A stretch of 64,000 bases of DNA from Spiroplasma endosymbiont of Panorpa germanica (GTDB taxonomy: Bacteria > Bacillota_I > Bacilli_A > Mycoplasmatales > Mycoplasmataceae): assembly GCF_964019765.1 (NCBI RefSeq), contig NZ_OZ026461.1:806001-870000 (forward strand), written 5' to 3'. The position numbers were made by a program, and so were the translations under genes. Within the stretch, counting starts at the first letter, position 1; every line of letters starts with the position of its first letter. The notes beneath the pieces were generated by a model. That model did no database searches. It saw only the letters and a program-made list of their open reading frames with translations, and was not told the origin of the DNA. Positions 7,628-36,521 of this stretch are shown piece by piece.

Positions 7628-8701
7628 ATGTATACTAGAACGCAAACAAGAAAAGTAATGGTCGGTCCTTATCAAATTGGTGGGGATAATAATGTGATTA
7701 TTCAATCAATGACAACTACTAAAACTCACGACCTTAAAGCAACACTAGAACAAATAAAACAACTCCAAGAAGAAGGTTGTCAAATTGTGAGAGTTGCTGT
7801 ATTGGGAATTAATGATGCTCAGGCTCTAAAAGAGTTAGTTGAAAAATCACCAGTTCCGATAGTGGCAGATATTCACTTCAATCACAAGTTCGCTTTAATG
7901 GCAGCTGATGCTGGGGTAGCTAAAATAAGAATTAATCCAGGAAATATTGGTTTGAAGGAAAACACAATTGCTGTGGTTAGAAAGTGTCAAGAAAAAAAGA
8001 TTCCTATTCGTATAGGAATTAATTCAGGAAGTCTTCCAAAAAAAATAGTAGAAAAGTTAGGTTGGACTCCTGCTGCGATGGTGGAAGCCCTTGGAGAACA
8101 TATCAAGATTCTAGAGGAGTTAAATTTTTATGATATTATTTATTCTCTAAAAGCGACTGACCCATTAATGGCAATAGAAGCTTACAATCTTGCAGCACAA
8201 AGATGAAATTACCCTTCTCACTTAGGAATTACTGAGGCTGGAAGTTTGTTAAACGGAGCTATTAAGTCAAGTTTTGGTTTAGGACATTTACTAATGCAAG
8301 GATTGGGAAACACAATTAGAATTAGTTTAAGCGAAGATCCCATTGAGGAAATTAAAGTTTGTAAACGTTTGCTAAATGCTTTGGGATTATATGATAATAT
8401 TGTTGAGGTTATCGCTTGTCCAACATGTGGAAGAATTGAATATTCAATGAATCCAGTTGTTAGTGAAATTGAAAAATTTGTGGAACCACTCCACTTCCCC
8501 TTCAAAGTGGCCATTCTTGGTTGTGTTGTTAATGGTCCAGGGGAAGCTAGTCACGCAGATGTTGGTATTGCTGGAGGTAATAAAGGGGGCATCATTTTTA
8601 AAAAAGGTAAGATATTTAAAACTGTACCCCAAGAAATGCTTGTACCTGAATTAAAGGAAATTATCACTCAGGCCTATAATGAATATAAAAAAATCAAGTA
8701 A
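7628..8701 (+). CDS. ispG: 4-hydroxy-3-methylbut-2-en-1-yl diphosphate synthase (IspG/GcpE)
   Basis: Fe-S enzyme of the MEP (non-mevalonate) isoprenoid pathway, converting ME-cPP to HMBPP. The 357-residue protein has the N-terminal TIM barrel (IQSMTTTKTHD, VADIHFNHKFA, KIRINPGNIG) and the C-terminal [4Fe-4S] domain with Cys264-x-x-Cys267-G-R, Cys299 in GCVVNGPGE and Glu306. One TGA Trp at about 8204 interrupts it in the standard code. An extended -10-like TGGTAAAAT lies near 7599. The enzyme needs electrons from a flavodoxin or ferredoxin, not seen here. A terminator palindrome overlaps its stop. Confidence 0.95.
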
Positions 8702-23959: not shown

Positions 23960-24052
23960 TTCTAAAATCTCCTTCAGTATAGACTCGCCTTGTACGTGAG
24001 TTTTAAACTTCTTTATAACGCACAAAAGAGCGGTTGAAACTGTCAACCTCAT
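23960..24052 (-). ncRNA. L21 leader, structured 5' region of rplU
   Basis: The approximately 95-base leader contains a hairpin with stem actcgc/gtgagt-type arms at 23983-23988 and 23996-24001, just ahead of the SD GAAGGAG. This layout matches the L21 leader of Firmicutes, thought to mediate autoregulation. It is read through by a non-genuine open frame. Assignment rests on position and visible hairpin only. Confidence 0.55.
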
Positions 24053-26709: not shown

Positions 26710-28476
26710 TTACTTTAAATTTTCTATGTAGTCTATCAAATTATTATAGGCTTTTGGATTTTTAACTATTTTTTTTAACTCAATCTTGTCGGCCTGTTTT
26801 AATTCCTCTAAAGTGGGGTAAATGCTGCGTATTTTGTTTACAGTAACTTGTCCAATTAATGGTATTTGGGCTAAACCATCTTTTACCAAAGCGTTAGATT
26901 GATTATTCCTAAATCCTGAAATTGCAAAGTTATGCACACGATCTTGCATTTTTTTTAAAAAGTTGAAAAGTTGGCTTTGTTTTGAAATGATTAAATCTTG
27001 TTTGTTTAAGTCCAGAATATGGTCAGTATTATGGTGTTGGTCCTTCACTAATCCAATCACCGGGATTTGTAAATCTAATAATTCCAGTTGTGATTTAATT
27101 GCATTAACCTGAATAATTCCCCCATCGGCAATTATTAAATCTGGTAATTCTTGTTGCTCGCGTAGTCCTCGTTGAAAGCGTCGGTAAATCATATGCTGGA
27201 ATCTTTGATAATCTCCTTTTTTGGGAATATCAATATTGTACTTTCTAAAGTCGTTAAAACTAGGTTTACCACCCTTGAAAACTACCATAGCTCCAATAAC
27301 AAATTCGTCCAAGATATTTGCCACATCGAAGATTTCGATATGTTGTGGATAATTTGGAAGTTTCAAAGTTTCTTCAAGATTTTTTAAGATAGTTACTTCA
27401 TTGTTCAAAACTATTGTTTTAGCAAGTTTTGATTGGCGTAAGGCTTCCTTAGCATTTATCAATGCCAGATTTAATAACCTTTTTTCAGTCGGACTAACCA
27501 CAGTGGTAATCTTACCATTATAATTATTGGAAAATTCTTCAACATTTAAAGAATCGTCCACCAGGATGAAATCGGGAAGCATGTTTTTTGCATAAATTTG
27601 AGATAAATAAGACTCATGTAATTCATTTAAATTTTGACCTTCAAATTCTCCAACAAATTCATCTTTAAAAACCAATTTTCCTTGTCTGTAAAAAAGAATA
27701 GAGAAAGCAATTTTGTCTTCCTCTACGAAGAAAGCGATGACATCTTGATTTAAATTATCATTGAGTTCCACTTCCTGCTCGACTCTTGAAAAGTTTAAAT
27801 GCTCAATCAGTTTTTTGATTCTTCCAGCTTCTTCAAATTGAAGATTATCAGCTGCTTGAATCATTTTACTAGTTAACTTATTTTTTACCTCTTCACTACT
27901 ACTTCTAAAAAAATCATCAACATGATTGATTTTGTCTTGGTAATATTCTCAATTAACTTCTTGAAAACAAGCTCCCGAGCACTGTTGGATGTGATAATAC
28001 AAGCAAGGTTTACCCAAATTTCCCAAACATCTTCTTAAAGGATAAATCCTTTGCAACATCTTCAAAATCTCTCTAGCACTAGTCCCATCAGGAAGAGGTC
28101 CAAAACTTTTCAAAGAGTTTTTATCATACTTTCTTAAATATCGGTATTCTGGATCGGGCTCATTTGTGATCACAATATAAGGATATTGCTTATCATCATT
28201 TAAAACAATGTTAAATCTAGGCTTATATTTTTTAATTAAATTCTGTTCTAGAATTAAAGCCTCTTGCTCATTTTCTGTAATAATAGTTTTTATTTCATGG
28301 ATGTTTCGAACAAGCTGCATTGTCTTTATCCCACTTACTTTTTTAAAGTAACTTGAAACTCTACGACGAAGTCTTTTGGCTTTTCCCACATAAATAACTT
28401 TTCCCAAATTATTATAAAACAAGTAGCAGCCTGGATTTTCTGAAATTAGACTAAGCTGCTCTTCAACATTCTTCAT
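26710..28476 (-). CDS. uvrC: UvrABC excinuclease subunit C
   Basis: Makes the two incisions in nucleotide excision repair. The 588-residue protein has the GIY-YIG nuclease domain (GCYLFYNNLGKVIYVGKAKRL, residues 16-36), a cysteine-bearing region, the UvrB-binding UVR segment, the RNase H-like endonuclease core (LIIADGG, VGLVKDQHH with Asp/His) and the HhH domain (LAQIPLIGQVTVNKIRSIYPT). Joined by a TGA Trp (QEVNWEYYQD). It is 11 bases upstream of nothing on the same strand but follows the VWA gene by 11 bases, so expression may be linked. Confidence 0.96.
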
Positions 28477-28487
28477 TAGATTTCCTC

Positions 28488-30461
28488 CTAAAACTCAGAG
28501 ATTTGGCTTAACTTTCTAAGAGTTCTTTTATAATTACTTAAATCCTCAGGATCTAAATTTCAAACCGCACTAAAGTTTTTCAAAATCCCCATATTTGGAC
28601 TTTTACTTAAAACTAAAGCATGAAAACGCGTTTTACGTTCGATTTGTATTTTTTTAATCTCACGATATATTTCATCAGGAATTTCTTCACCAAGAAAATC
28701 TGAAATCATTAACACATCAGCATTTTGATACTCGCTAGTTGTCATAATTTCTAAAGCTTTTTGTAATGGTGTGGCAAAATCTGTTCCTCCATCTGAGAAA
28801 TTCATTGATAAGAAATCGTAAAGTAGTTTGATATCGCTGTGCATTGCTGTTAAATCTAATGAGTTGATATCAGTAGAGAATGTAATTAAATGGATACTAC
28901 GACGGTTACGATTAGCCAATGCGCCCATCATAATTGCTGTTGCCTTAGAAATCAATTCTGGATTTCCATGCATACTTCCCGAGATATCAATAATAAGTAT
29001 GATTGGTCCTCGTTTTTGTTCTTGACTTAAACTTCTTTGTTGTTTAATTCTTGAAAGTTCATTTTCATTCATAGTTTCAGTATTTTTGTAATCAAATGTT
29101 TGAAATTTTTGTTCCAAATACTTAACCATGAATAATTTTTTTAAGGCCGGTGTTTTTAAATAGGCTAATTCACTAGATAGGATTCGGTCTATATCTGATG
29201 ATAATTTCATACCCAAAATTTCTTCAGGATAATTTTGTTCTTCTATTTTTTGTTTCTTTTCAAACGATTTTTGAAGTCTTGATTTATCAAACTCTTGTTT
29301 TGCACCTGAAAGTTTTCCTAAGATTTCAAAAAGCCTTTTTAAAACAAGGTTGTTCTTAATCTCATCAGCTAATTTTATCATTAATTCCATTTCCTTCATC
29401 GAAACTTTAGTAAAATCTAAACCTCAAGCTGGACCATAAATATCTCTTATTGGTTGAGTTGTGTCAATGAAACTAATGAAACCGTTAATGTCACTTTTAA
29501 TTTCGCGAGCAACTTTATTTGCCCCTTCATTTATGTAAATAAAAATCTCTGATAAAAATTCATCATAAATATCTGATTCCAAAATTTCTATAATGTTATC
29601 GAAATTCTCTTTATTATCAATTTCAGTGTTTATTTTTTCCAATTCTTTTTCAACCGCTATTTTATTCGGTTCAAAAAGATCTGTGATTTGAGTTAAAGTC
29701 AAGTCAATGGTTGAATTATCAATAAAGTGATTTTGGGATATATTTTTTTCAACCACTTTTATATTGTTGACTATTTTTTCATTAGGTTTTAAATCACTAA
29801 TTATCTTAGTTCAATGATTATAGAATCCAATGATTGCTTCTCTAATTTTTCTACTCAATAAAAGATTTTCTTCTCCCTTTAAATGAAATAAATAGTCATT
29901 GTATTCAGGAAGGGTTTTCAAAAAATATATTTTTTTATCCAAATAATCGTAAGCAAGTTTTTTGGCTTTTTGTGTATACTTATCAATTTCACGATAATAG
30001 TTATCAAAATATATTTGAATTTTTTTATTAAAATCTTTTTCTAAATGTGCAAAAATATCACCAGTCGCATAACTGATCAAAACCTTGACTCAATCATCTA
30101 TTACATCTTCTTTGTAAATGCTTGGTAGGACATCAAAATCATGCAAAAAATAAGACTCATTTTTATGTAAATACTCTCTTGTTTCGTTGTGTTCATAAAC
30201 AAAGGTGGCGGCATTCATTTTTTCCAAATAATTTAAATCACTTTTAACTTTATTCTCCATCAAAAAGCGATGAATCAAAATTTCAAAATTACTAAATAAA
30301 ACTTCTAGTATTTCCTTCATTGTTTTTTTCTCAGAAGCGCTGGCTGCCTCAAAAAAATTCTGGTAATATTCTTGTTTGAATCAGTTCTTTTTGAAATTTG
30401 AAATTTGTAAAATTAAAGATTCGCTTATTTCAGACTCAATTTTTTGTTTAAAATTAATCAT
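28488..30461 (-). CDS. viaA: ViaA-like VWA-domain protein, partner of RavA
   Basis: A 657-residue protein. The C-terminal von Willebrand A domain (about residues 485-640) has an intact MIDAS: D492-x-S-x-S (DISGSMHG), a Thr/Asp in DGGTDFATPL, and MISDFLGEEIP. The domain aligns closely by eye with E. coli ViaA (GPIILI-D-SGSM, GGTD, ISDF, RFHAL). The N-terminal 480 residues are longer than in ViaA (483 residues in total) and not recognised. Four TGA Trp codons split it. Its ATG directly follows the ravA-like stop (TAAATG), giving tight coupling. It probably acts in a complex with the ATPase; the client is unknown. Confidence 0.82.
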
Positions 30462-31667
30462 TTAACCAACCATTTTCTGAAGCTTTGCAAACGATTTTTC
30501 AAAATCATTTCTAATTTCTACATCTACTCCGTCAATCCCATTAAAAGCTACAGGAAAGAAAACTGAACTGGCCTTTGTTAAAGTACTACGTTCTTGAGAA
30601 ATTCTCTTAAGAATTGATTTGTAGCGAGTCCCGATTTCTTTGGTATAGTTCCTGTCAGAAAAGTTATTTTTTAAAACATTTTTTACTTGAACCGTTAAAG
30701 ACTTAATTTCAGTTTCAGCTCAACTAGCTTCATTCTTGATACCAATTTCTTTATTCATTAATTCTTTGTAAATTAAATTGATTTCATTTCTTTCATTAAC
30801 GGTATTATTATTTAGTTTATTTCATAAAGTATGATTTACTACAAAAGTGTCAACCATCTCTACCTTATCTCTACCAGAACAGTGAGCGCTAACTTTCATT
30901 AGTCGAATAACTTTTTTTCAGCGACGATCTGAAATATATATTCCTGTCTTAGCTTCAATATTAGCTTTTAATTTATCAATAAAGGCGATAACTTCTTCTG
31001 ATAATGTTATGAATTGGCCTTTTTTACCATCAACTACTTCACTAATCTGAGTGATCATTTCTGGGGTAATTAAATCTTCTGCTTGAAGAGTCACATCCAA
31101 CTTTGCAGGGTTATAATTTACCATTTTCAATATATTGTCAAAATCTTTTATTGGGGTTATTTCATAGCGAATTAAAAATCGGTCATACAAAGCTTCTAGA
31201 CCTTGGTTTTCTTCGGGAAATTCATTGGAAGCTGAAATTAATAATTTCAGAGGAACGCGGTTTACCTTGTTACCATTTCTAAATTCTTTTTCGTTGATTA
31301 TTGTTAGTAAGGTATTTTGGATACTTGGACCTGCTTTTCAAATTTCATCAAGAAAAGCTACATCCGCACCTGGTAAATAACCTTCAGTTCTTCTAAAATA
31401 TTCTCCGTGTGTTAATTTATCTATGTCCAGGGGTCCAAAAATTTCATCTGGTGTTGAATACTTATTCATTAAATATTCAAAGATTTGACCATTTCTAATA
31501 ATATTTTTGACCAACTTAGCTAAATTGGATTTTCCTAATCCTGGTTTTCCATATAAAAAAATTGACTCTTCTGCAAACAGCGCTAAAAGCGTCAGATGAA
31601 TTGCCTCATCTCTTTCATATAAATTATTTGTTAAAAAAGTTATTAATTTCTCGATTTTATTTTTCAT
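30462..31667 (-). CDS. ravA: RavA-like MoxR-family AAA+ ATPase
   Basis: A 401-residue hexameric-type AAA+ ATPase. The sequence tracks E. coli RavA through the core: LYERDEAIHLTLLALFAEES, Walker A G-x4-GKS at residues 40-47, EYLMNKYSTPDEIFGPL, EGYLPGADVAFLDEI (Walker B 104-109), WKAGPSIQNTLLTIINEKEF and SASNEFPEENQGLEALYDRF. The RavA-specific triple-helical/LARA region is shorter (family about 500 residues). Tryptophans are TGA. It is the first gene of the ravA-viaA pair and follows proC by 37 bases. E. coli RavA acts on respiratory and lysine-decarboxylase complexes that mollicutes lack, so the target is an open question. Confidence 0.85.
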
Positions 31668-31704
31668 GTCTACCTCTTTTATTTATTATATATTTATAGG
31701 TAAT

Positions 31705-32529
31705 TTAAGTCAAAATACTGCTCAATTTTTCATCTTTTTTTAAGATAGCTTTAATAGCTTCCTTGACAATCAATTTGAAATCAGAATTATCAAAAACAGC
31801 AATCCCTTCCATAGTTGTTCCCCCTGGTGAAGTAACCTGTTTAATAATTTCATTAGGTTTTAAATCAGAATTTAAGTAATTTTTGAAAGTTCCTTCAAAT
31901 ACGCTTAAAAATAATTCCTTAACATTTAAATAGCCTAATTCCATTTCAGCAGCTAGATTTTCAAATAGCTCATAGAAATACAAAATCAATGCAGGAGAAC
32001 TCCCTGCCAAAGCAGCGAATTTTGAAAAATCACTTTCTTCTATTTTGTAAATGGCTCCAAACGCTTTTAAAAGCATCTCGATATTTATTAATTCAATTGG
32101 GCTCAATTCTCAACTAGAGCACCAAGCTGTTGCTGACTTATTTACATTAGCATTAATGTTCGGCATTATTCTAATGATTTTTTTAGACCCTTCTTTTAGT
32201 AAAAAACTATTAATTTTTTCAATCGACCAAGAGACAACCATTGAAATAATAATTTTTGAGCTATCAACAAAAGGACTGATTTGTCCTAGAACATTCAGCA
32301 TATCTTTTGGCTTTATTCCCAAAAAAATAACATCTGTTTTTTCCACTAATTCTTTTATACTATTCAGTGGTGTTGTTAAATTATTTTTTAAAAAACTTTC
32401 ACTAGTTTTTAAATTCCTATTAAATGTAAAAAGTTTGAAATCACCAAGTTTTTTATTATGTTTAATACCTTTAATTATGGCCATTCCCATATTTCCAGTT
32501 CCAATAAAACCAATATTTTTAATTGACAT
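31705..32529 (-). CDS. proC: Pyrroline-5-carboxylate reductase
   Basis: Reduces pyrroline-5-carboxylate to proline with NADPH. The 274-residue protein has the Rossmann start IKNIGFIGTGNMGMAIIKG, MPNINANVNKSATAW, and the C-terminal dimer domain with SPGGTTMEGIAVF (signature of ProC). One TGA Trp separates the two halves. No proA/proB genes are visible, so it may work in ornithine or arginine-derived proline synthesis (inference). It is followed by ravA and preceded by the degenerate ABC gene 5 bases away. Confidence 0.92.
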
Positions 32530-32534
32530 ATAAT

Positions 32535-33182
32535 TTAGCCCTCATCTCCATTTTCTTTATTCAAGTATATTGTTTTTGAAAAATTAATTTTAAATTGTTT
32601 TTTGCTTTCTTCATCTTTTAAAATTCTAATAATAAAAGCTGTTCCAGATTCATTTAGTTGGTGGATGCTTTTTGTTACAATATTAATTTCATCATGAGAA
32701 AAGTTATCTGAATCAAGATCTAGTAAAATTATTTCTGGATTATTCAACATAGCTATTAGCAAGGTTATCTTAAACTTTTGAATTTTACTTAATTTAAAAA
32801 TTTTAACAAATAATAAATCATCTATTTCAAAATAGCGAATTAGCTCCACTAGTTTTTCCTCTGATTCTTTTTTTGTAATTGATTTTAATTTCCCGCAATA
32901 TGAAAGATAATTTTGCAAAACCATTTTCTCTGGTAGCTTGTTTAAGTCTAAGACATAGCTAATCTTTTTAACTAGAGAGGCTTCAAAAACATTTAAACCA
33001 TTTAAGAAAATCCCTCCAGATTGAAAATTACTTTGACCTGAAATTATTTTGAGCATATTGCTCTCATCAATGTCAACAAGCTGATTTATAGATTTTTCCA
33101 TAATATAAAAGGAAATGTTTTCATAAAAAGAAGTTGCACCCCTTTTTTGAGTGATGTTATTTACAATAAGCAACTTTTCCAT
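32535..33182 (-). CDS. Degenerate ABC-transporter ATP-binding protein
   Basis: A 215-residue protein with the overall ABC fold but broken catalytic motifs. At the Walker A position residues 33-44 read NQLVDIDESNML with Glu40 in place of the Lys. The signature LSGGQ is LSKIQ (131-135). Walker B is IILLDLDSD with the catalytic Glu replaced by Leu156, and no switch His is evident. Segments such as LKIISG and NNPEIILLD still align. It lies 4 bases upstream of the permease gene, hence a probable transporter partner that may not hydrolyse ATP. Confidence 0.7.
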   Translation of the reverse strand: MEKLLIVNNITQKRGATSFYENISFYIMEKSINQLVDIDESNMLKIISGQSNFQSGGIFLNGLNVFEASLVKKISYVLDLNKLPEKMVLQNYLSYCGKLKSITKKESEEKLVELIRYFEIDDLLFVKIFKLSKIQKFKITLLIAMLNNPEIILLDLDSDNFSHDEINIVTKSIHQLNESGTAFIIRILKDEESKKQFKINFSKTIYLNKENGDEG

Positions 33183-33186
33183 GAAC

Positions 33187-34974
33187 CTATCTCCTTTTTA
33201 CTATTTTCTTATGAAATTCTAAATACCCAATTGAAATTGTCAATAATGCCACAGCTATCCAAGTAAAATAAAGTGTTCAAACTGGTACGATACTTTTTTT
33301 AAAGCTGTCTATTTTAACCATTCTTTGTGCATATTCATTTACTTGATTTCTTACAATAAATTCCTCAGGTGCGTAGCCTTCTTTAAACTCTACCTTATAA
33401 TATTTGTTTGCCATTGCGCCAATTTTTGGATTAGATTTGTGATACTCAATTTGATTATTGTATCAACCGAAATTACTCATTAATCAAAATTGAGACATGT
33501 AGTTTATACCCACACTGGTTTTTTGTTTTTTTATGTATCGATTAAGATCGGGTTCGTTTCACAAATTAAAATTGTAGTTGTATGCGTTTCTAATCATTGA
33601 TAACATAGTTCCAGTTAACACTCTTTCACCCGAGGATGAGTTAAACAACAAATGTTCTTTATTAGCGTTATTGTTTTGCAAACTATTATAAAAGAAATCT
33701 TCACTATTTGTTTGGTTTAAATCTAAGGGCGATAAACTTGAAGTATTAAAGTATGAGTAATCATTTATAAAAGTGTTTGCGTAATCATAAAACTGTATGA
33801 TATCTTCATTCGAATAATTTAATGAGAGTGTTTTAGTTTCTCGAATCTCTTTTAAAGCTATTAATATTTGGTCATTATTGAATGGGTTTAATTTTATATC
33901 TTTAATATTTTTTCTCTCTAAATTGAATAAAGAATTTTTTCAATCATTCTCGCGAGTCTGAGAGAATTTATTTTCTAGATAATAGTCCCTTAAGCTTTGG
34001 TTAATATCATAAAAAACTTCTAAAGGTCTTAATTTCTTAGAAACCATGTCATTTCCTCATTTAATACTGCCGTCAATTATTTCTCAATTTATTTCAAAGT
34101 CATTGTTATCTCCAGTCTTTTTATCAATATCTAAAAAAAGATAGTCGTTAAAAACACTAGAATAAAGTTCGTTTTTGTAATCATTCTCAATTTTGCATTC
34201 TTGATTACAGCTCTTTAATTTAAATGCATAGTCTCAGAATTCAAATGACTTAATCAAATCTTCAACAAATTCATTAACTTCGCTCAACTCATAAATATCC
34301 ACAACTGTTTCAATCCCAATAGTTTGACGACTTAAATTTCTAGCTATTAAGTCATCTCTTGGTGAATCCTTTTTTTGAGTAGTTTGAAAGTGCAGGTTAG
34401 CACTTAAACCGCTAATTGATAGGGTAATTGCAAACAATGTGGCAACAATGCTTGGAAACAATCATGGCAGTGTCATTTCAAACAATACCATCAACCCAAA
34501 AAATAATAGATTTATAATTCCTGCCGTGAAGAAAATTGGATAAAACATTTTTAAGTAAATGTTAAAATTCTCAAAATTTCGGACCAGAACCATTGATACT
34601 GTAACGCAGAATAAAGTTAAAATAAAAATGGTCGCTACTCAAAAATTAATGACCATTCTAATCGAAAAAATTTTTCAATTAGAAATAAAACTGGTTCTTT
34701 CTAAATTAATAATTTGTTGTTCGAAATGATTATGAAAAAATTTTCTTGAGAATCATGTTTGAAATAACAGAATTCAAAATATTAAAATTGCAATATTTAC
34801 AATAATTAAAGTCGTCTCAGATTTAAGAGTAGCATCATTTTTGGCTTTGTCAATGATAAAGTAATTAAAAATTAAATTAATTAGAAGAACAAAAAACGAG
34901 AAAACAATTAAGCCTCAAGACTTAATTGTTTCTTTTCAAATAAACGCTCTTATGATTCTTGCTTTACTTTTCAT
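33187..34974 (-). CDS. ABC-2-like permease with large extracytoplasmic domain
   Basis: A 595-residue membrane protein. About five N-terminal membrane segments (residues about 19-41, 55-72, 107-130, 145-165, 172-192) are followed by a soluble region of about 370 residues and one C-terminal segment near 565-583. The soluble part is Asn/Tyr-rich and not recognised. It lies between the degenerate ATPase (4 bases away) and the lipoprotein gene (8 bases away) on the same strand, forming one unit. Whether it exports or imports is unknown. Many TGA Trp codons hid it as one frame. Confidence 0.65.
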
Positions 34975-34982
34975 TCTTTCTC

Positions 34983-36521
34983 CTATCTCAAATTAAAAGT
35001 ATGGTCTCCTAATATTTTTTGCGTAACTCCAACAAGTCTAATTTTTGAAATACTTAACATTGATGTTGTATCATCAAATTCTTTAAGATTAGTTGAAAGA
35101 TGGACATCTTCATCGATTCCAAAATCCACATCATATTCCCTTTGCCTTTTAACCAGTTCTTTAAAATCTCTTTTAAAGTCCCCAACTGTTTTATTGCTAT
35201 TTTTAAAAATAATATCTTCAATCTCCTCTTCAAAAACTTGCATGATGAAGTTATATTTTGTTTCATTATTTATTTTAAACTTAGTAGTTCCCTCAAATGA
35301 AAAGTTGTAGTGTAAAAATTTTACATCGCCTTCTTTAAAGTTTATATCCACATCTTGGGTAGCTCTAATTCTAAAATCTAAATATGAGCTCTCAAAAGAA
35401 TTGAATTCCTTGCTAAATTTAAAACTATTATCAATTAATTCATACTTATTTTTCAATTTTGAACTTTGGTCCAAAATTTTTATAACCTCAGCTTTCGCCT
35501 GATCTTCTCTGGCAGTAGGCTTTAATTTAATTCCCGAAAAATCACAATCAAAAAAAGTGATTTCGGGATATTCTAAATAGCTCATGTCCTTCTCGTTGAC
35601 TGTAAACTTCATTTGCTTATAGTCACCGGTTGAGAAATAGTTTTCAACATTTCCAGTAAACTCTAAAATAAATTCACCTGTTTTTGTTTTGCTATCATAA
35701 TAAATATTTTGTCCCTTATCAGGATAATATTTTCATTTATTATTAATTCTTGGATCTTGATTTAAAGTATTGCTAATTTCTGACTCTATATCTGCCAAAG
35801 AATTTCTGTCGCTGCGAATTTGAATATCCCCTAATGAAGTATCTAGAACTCTTTGACTTGCAACTGCATTTTGTGGGTCAGTTCAGTTAATTTCAAAATC
35901 AAAATCAAAAACATCATCAGCTTTATATGCCAGGTCGACATCATTTTTAAATTTTATTTTACAACTTCCATAAGGGTTAAATTTATGTGATTTTAAATAG
36001 ATGATTTCTGTATTACCTGAAAAATATTTATTTTTATCAATGCCGGTGAAAAGCGTTTTTTCAATAGTATCACTTTCGCTACCAAATTTAACCTTTAGAT
36101 CTCTAGTGAAATCATAATCACCCAGTTGAGTTTGCCCTTTAATTTCAATTCCGTCAACACTTTTTGTAGTAAAATTAAAATTAAAATCGTCGCCCTCTTC
36201 ACCAAGACCATCGATATCCTCATTTATTGAAAAAAGAAAAAACCCCATACCAAGTTGTTTGTCATAATCCATCGCTTCAAACTCATATTTATCTTTAATG
36301 ATTGAATTTTGGTCAAGTTGATCGATAAAGTAATCTTGTATTTGTTCCTTTGTAGTTGTGTTATTAACAAAAATATCTGTTATTTTAATATTCAACAAGT
36401 CTAAAATCTCTTCATGTTCATCTCAAGGAATTTCTTCATCTGGAACTAAACAAGAAACCACTCCTGAAGTTGGCACTGTAAATAAGCAAATTGCGCCTAA
36501 TATAGCTGTTAACTTTTTCAA
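34983..36521 (-). CDS. Lipoprotein, 512 aa, TTG start
   Basis: Hypothetical surface lipoprotein. It begins at a TTG complementing 36519-36521, with AAAGGAG 8 bases before it, giving MKKLTAILGAICLF and a lipobox GVVSC, so Cys24 is the lipidation site. The mature part is an acidic, Asp/Phe/Lys-rich beta-type domain containing two internally similar halves (QDYFIDQLDQNSIIKDKYEF and the later EVIKILDQSSKLKNKYELI), which suggests a duplicated repeat unit. Broken only by TGA Trp codons. It is the first gene of the permease cluster. Confidence 0.75.

Follow-up and report, generated by a model that had tools for sequence, protein, structure and literature searches.

RavA-ViaA and related chaperones

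The function of the RavA-ViaA pair of Escherichia coli is disputed, with lysine decarboxylase, respiratory complexes and membrane lipids each having been put forward as its target. RavA (PDB 3nbx, 6q7l) contains an AAA+ core and lid that carry the catalytic motifs, and its gene is followed by that of ViaA, which contains an NTV-like region, a C-terminal VWA domain with a MIDAS and a basic amphipathic C-terminal helix. According to work on the E. coli proteins (PMC9489729), the LARA domain of RavA is required for binding of LdcI and phosphatidylglycerol but not of ViaA; the N-terminal domain of ViaA is enough to bind RavA, and its basic amphipathic C-terminal helix attaches to anionic lipids. 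MoxR AAA+ ATPases are also found with VWA co-chaperones in the NorQ-NorD/CoxD-CoxE systems and in the MoxR-vWA ternary conflict systems (PMC7159879).

A pair of this kind is encoded in the window, the whole 64,000-nucleotide stretch analysed here, which spans positions 806001-870000 of the single-contig, 1,054,068-base genome of the Spiroplasma endosymbiont of Panorpa germanica. It is referred to below as pair 2 (RavA2-ViaA2), and an ordinary pair elsewhere in the same genome as pair 1 (RavA1-ViaA1). Pair 2 shares with the E. coli system the domains, motifs and gene order given above, but is without LARA, bears a private extension of about 170 residues on ViaA2 and scores under the equivalog cut-offs of both families. 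The host genomes also differ, as that of pair 2 has no LdcI, Nuo or Frd partners and holds two pairs in one cell. Pair 2 likewise resembles the ternary conflict and NorQ-NorD/CoxD-CoxE systems in joining a MoxR ATPase to a VWA co-chaperone, but has neither a third component nor a metalloenzyme target operon.

Gene organization and the RavA2 ATPase

The ravA2 gene (30462..31667, minus strand) encodes a 401-aa RavA-subfamily ATPase (MoxR class, AAA+) that has no LARA-sized insert, and viaA2 (28488..30461, minus strand) encodes a 657-aa ViaA-type VWA protein with a MIDAS. Both frames are open under genetic code 4 only, as code 11 introduces TGA breaks into each (four TGA=Trp codons in ravA2 and five in viaA2). 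The direct coupling of the two genes noted in the preliminary description is borne out, with the ravA2 stop and the viaA2 start abutting at zero gap in TAAATG. A sigma-70-type TTGACT-17-TATAAT site (31685..31713, minus strand) lies some 18 bases ahead of the ravA2 start, matches 11 of 12 consensus positions and overlaps the end of the inconstant upstream neighbour proC (pyrroline-5-carboxylate reductase; 31705..32529, minus strand). All three members of the genus retain this site, which ranks among the top two promoter-like matches in the region; it is thus a putative ravA2 promoter, backed by conservation that is not in itself proof.

The assignment of pair 2 to the RavA-ViaA kind is very probably correct. 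RavA2 matches the NCBIfam RavA profile NF010054 at 289 bits (7e-86; profile positions 9-296 of 498), as against just 22 bits for generic MoxR (Pfam AAA_3). Among PDB entries, E. coli RavA is the top hit both in sequence (1e-68) and in fold (Foldseek; 3nbx, E-value 3e-26, compared with 1.7e-13 for the generic MoxR-like 2r44). By profile and by fold, the AAA+ core and lid are therefore nearer to RavA than to generic MoxR. Because generic MoxR scores worse and the two genes are conserved neighbours, as detailed below, the original observation of a MoxR-type ATPase with RavA-like stretches beside a ViaA-like gene stands. RavA2 does lie under the NCBI equivalog cut-off (289 vs 681 bits over the full 498-aa profile), as does RavA1 (334 vs 681 bits), and ViaA2 falls below that of ViaA (199 vs 500 bits). 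Accordingly, RavA2 and ViaA2 are regarded as subfamily members and not as orthologues in the strict sense.

The catalytic apparatus of RavA2 is intact, comprising Walker A (GKPGLGKS), Walker B (FLDE), sensor-1 (N148), the Arg finger (R163) and sensor-2 (SDRRW), and the residues of these motifs fall in invariant columns of the alignments. Past the conserved lid Trp, RavA2 continues for 120 residues versus a median of 227, and its structural model consists of an AAA+ core, mostly at pLDDT >90, followed by helices only (residues 286-399). Thus, RavA2 is without a LARA-sized domain, in agreement with the earlier remark that part of the RavA-specific region is lacking, and the same region is missing from all four RavA2 proteins.

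RavA2 also matches Pfam PF20030 (bpMoxR) at 175 bits, as might a component of a MoxR-vWA conflict or defence system, but the ordinary RavA1 matches this family equally (171 bits). No partner of the VMAP, iSTAND, FtsH or beta-propeller type was observed beside pair 2, nor is a beta-propeller fused to it. PADLOC gave no match for the VWA protein, weak generic AAA matches only for the ATPase, and no system call. With its housekeeping location and presence in every genome of the genus in addition, pair 2 is scarcely credible as a defence system.

Domain structure of ViaA2

ViaA2 matches the NCBIfam ViaA profile NF008230 at 199 bits (1.7e-58) over residues 315-642. In its counterpart from a genome of the neighbouring genus (G147), the match extends over residues 172-635, against profile positions 18-475. 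The protein is laid out as a private helical extension (1-~175), an NTV-like helical region (~175-480), a VWA domain with the MIDAS (~485-640) and a C-terminal helix (641-657). It therefore holds the features of the ViaA family, an NTV-like helical region and a C-terminal MIDAS-bearing VWA domain, encoded adjoining a RavA gene. The MIDAS is complete, with DxSxS (D492/S494/S496), T560 and D588 all invariant in the alignment, which upholds the earlier reading of a ViaA match with an intact MIDAS.

The preliminary description also gave the VWA protein some 170 extra N-terminal residues, and this extension is indeed present beyond the length of ordinary ViaA proteins. It is encoded by about 175 codons (29937..30461, minus strand) and is helical according to a low-confidence model (pLDDT 30-70 for most of it). 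Among approximately 90 ViaA proteins searched, homologues of the extension were found in the four ViaA2 proteins only, where it is retained at full length (proteins of 655-657 aa) though its sequence has diverged. Foldseek searches with ViaA2 returned chiefly local alignments to VWA domains, and no convincing full-length relative. The C-terminal helix (KRTLRK) is basic and amphipathic in the three genomes of the genus, with a hydrophobic moment of 0.53-0.60 (shuffle p 0.02-0.04), and is weaker in G147 (shuffle p 0.12).

Pair 1 and the spread of RavA-ViaA

The preliminary description presented the window pair as the RavA-ViaA of a mollicute that lacks the E. coli partners. This framing does not hold, as the same genome carries a full-length pair that had been overlooked, and the window pair is a divergent second copy beside it. 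Pair 1 lies at 432.8-435.8 kb (L006 8830-11947), 400 kb from pair 2, and consists of adjacent genes for a 496-aa RavA1 and a 539-aa ViaA1. Mycoplasmatales pairs of this type share subfamily, gene order and motifs with pair 2, but RavA1 has a LARA-sized C-terminal region, and ViaA1 has a longer basic C-terminal tail and no N-terminal extension. The two pairs also differ in genomic site and share only 43% (RavA) and 27% (ViaA) identity. A DEAD-box helicase gene precedes pair 1, and the genes that come next in those members of the family with two pairs encode a small PCC-domain protein and a phosphorylase-family protein.

Among 298 Mycoplasmatales genomes surveyed, 65 contain a RavA-like match and 63 a ViaA-like match (63 with both), and the two genes are adjacent in 62 of these 63, so that conservation as neighbours across the group, which the preliminary description had proposed to survey, is clear. 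The sole sampled exception is G132 (L044, L191), in which ravA and viaA lie 198 kb apart and which provides a natural test of the need for adjacency. The Mycoplasmatales pairs inspected belong to the pair 1 type, with RavA of 486-575 aa and ViaA of 456-568 aa, except for a 290-aa ViaA fragment in G033. Additionally, a MAG from another family of the order (G102; L190 3537-6690 and L054) holds two RavA-ViaA pairs, both with full-length RavA (574 and 531 aa).

Across 395 sampled Bacilli, no genome outside the Mycoplasmatales reached E 1e-60. The pair does occur across Bacteroidota, Spirochaetota, Pseudomonadota and archaea, and 70 of 80 outside loci from these and other groups carry a ViaA-like gene, mostly adjacent; several of the remaining 10 are cut contigs. 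These loci were gathered with Trp-containing peptide patterns and served as an outgroup; they represent other phyla only, presumably since mollicutes write Trp as TGA. Because the pair is widespread in the Mycoplasmatales and common outside them, its presence in a mollicute is ordinary and not bound up with the clients of E. coli. It is pair 2 that is unusual.

Insertion site and origin of pair 2

Pair 2 occurs in four of the 298 Mycoplasmatales genomes, these being all three of the genus and G147. In each it lies directly upstream of uvrC (26710..28476, minus strand), which begins 11 bases past viaA2 in the window and forms the right-hand border of the insertion site. In the 26 other genomes of the family inspected at uvrC, this flank is devoid of pair 2, and ftsK is immediately upstream of uvrC in nearly all; the order in G147 is ftsK-ravA2-viaA2-uvrC. 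This clean empty site between ftsK and uvrC points to a single gain. The four carriers also fall on one side of a branch in the UvrC tree, albeit weakly (79/50), and a search for plasmid matches found none.

The identity between the pairs is low, and a recent duplication of pair 2 from the pair 1 of the genus is rejected (AU p 2e-5). An older origin from the pair 1 of the Spiroplasma family is compatible with the data (AU p 0.64) and has a slightly better likelihood, but in free trees pair 2 occupies its own deep branch. This separate branch, together with a ViaA2 that is equally close to ViaA of Spirochaetota, Bacteroidota and Heimdall and to mollicute ViaA1, would suit horizontal acquisition from outside the mollicutes along with an unrecognised client. 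Such an acquisition is nevertheless improbable, considering the fit of old descent, the grouping of RavA2 with mollicutes in the RavA tree (94 SH-aLRT) and the presence of multiple TGA=Trp codons in each gene. As to how pair 2 arose, a duplication with rapid subsequent change and a transfer from another source are both plausible.

Constraint and neighbouring genes

Strong purifying selection acts on pair 2. For the two most closely related genomes, dN is 0.07 for RavA2 and 0.13 for ViaA2, similar to pair 1 (0.06/0.12), whereas the adjoining proC and ABC genes have much higher values (0.35-0.42). The dN/dS ratios are rough and no exact value is claimed, since synonymous sites are saturated. These values bear on a rival reading in which pair 2, as a mostly redundant copy or one kept for dosage, serves the client of pair 1, with the loss of LARA and the added N-terminus arising by neutral drift. 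The two pairs do share subfamily and operon form and are kept in the same four genomes, but pair 2 is deeply diverged from pair 1 and no recent copy, yet is constrained to about the same degree. Its extension, moreover, has stayed at full length in four proteins despite sequence divergence. Redundancy is thus an unlikely explanation for pair 2.

The genes around pair 2 are proC and an ABC operon upstream, and uvrC-greA-rsmI on the downstream side. The ABC operon (window 32535-36521, minus strand) is fast-evolving and encodes a lipoprotein, a weak ABC ATPase and a large permease-like protein that matches no Pfam family; all three members of the genus have it, and it is absent at the site in G147. 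The operon and proC were considered as functional partners and rejected, being constant in the genus but missing at the site in G147, and fast-evolving. Elsewhere in the window, positions 23971-24045 (minus strand) match the Rfam model for the leader of ribosomal protein L21 with 45.5 bits.

Candidate clients

LdcI (PF01276), NuoD (PF00346) and FrdA (TIGR01812) are absent from the whole genome in searches for which the controls worked. The tested E. coli protein partners are thereby ruled out as clients and another client is implied, as the preliminary description had anticipated. The membrane or lipoprotein complexes that it proposed are candidate clients, and proC and the ABC operon just upstream provide no fixed partner. 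A literature search found nothing relevant on RavA-ViaA or MoxR in Spiroplasma or Mycoplasma, which does not prove that no such work exists.

Two candidates were weighed by co-occurrence. The genome encodes seven MreB homologues, as suits a Spiroplasma, and MreB is found in 50 of 65 RavA-positive and 70 of 233 RavA-negative genomes, a loose and clade-following association with many exceptions, on which grounds MreB was rejected as an obligate client. The MEP-pathway gene ispG lies in the window (7628-8701, plus strand), and ispH (L006 4618-5487, minus strand) is situated approximately 3.3 kb upstream of ravA1. An Fe-S enzyme of this isoprenoid pathway, IspG or IspH, could be the client given these locations, the genetic link of RavA-ViaA to Fe-S proteins in E. 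coli (PMC3893208) and the occurrence of IspG in 50 of 65 RavA-positive versus 54 of 233 RavA-negative genomes. However, 15 RavA-positive genomes are without IspG, including all RavA carriers of f5/g16 and f9/g20, while the 54 genomes with IspG but without RavA include G171, and the association tracks clades. An IspG/IspH client is accordingly highly unlikely, and owing to such loose co-occurrence neither MreB nor IspG is an obligate client.

A proposed role for pair 2

Pair 2 is probably a specialised second RavA-ViaA chaperone, in which RavA2 serves as a bare hexameric motor and ViaA2 chooses the client and makes contact with the membrane. Working beside the ordinary pair of the same cell, RavA2 would form a hexameric AAA+ ring that spends ATP in acting on ViaA2. 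ViaA2 would in turn select the client through its MIDAS-bearing VWA domain and private N-terminal extension, and its basic amphipathic C-terminal helix may place it at the membrane. Targeting may thus have shifted from the ATPase to the VWA partner, as the loss of LARA removes the LdcI/phosphatidylglycerol docking route of RavA, and the client is predicted to be non-redundant with that of pair 1. A more far-reaching version is possible, though we hold it to be less than probable: that the pair, duplicated or acquired, was rebuilt in one Spiroplasma lineage into a bare-motor ATPase with all client and membrane targeting in the extended VWA partner, for a client absent from E. coli.

A minimal, wall-less cell that has two constrained pairs and is without the tested protein partners strips those candidates away from the dispute over RavA-ViaA function. 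RavA2 is in effect a natural LARA deletion, so that the RavA-ViaA unit seems able to do without LARA, and its conserved core function, perhaps that of ViaA at the membrane or perhaps one involving another complex, becomes directly testable. Slimmed and re-tooled, and limited to four close genomes, the second pair suggests a specialised machine.

Loss of LARA alone is no proof that targeting was transferred, because a short RavA also occurs with a ViaA of ordinary length in a Prevotella MAG (UBA11202; L057 10001-12745). There, as in pair 2, a LARA-less RavA (384 aa) is encoded adjacent to ViaA, but the latter comprises 526 aa and the locus falls on another branch of the tree, making it an independent case of a LARA-less RavA.
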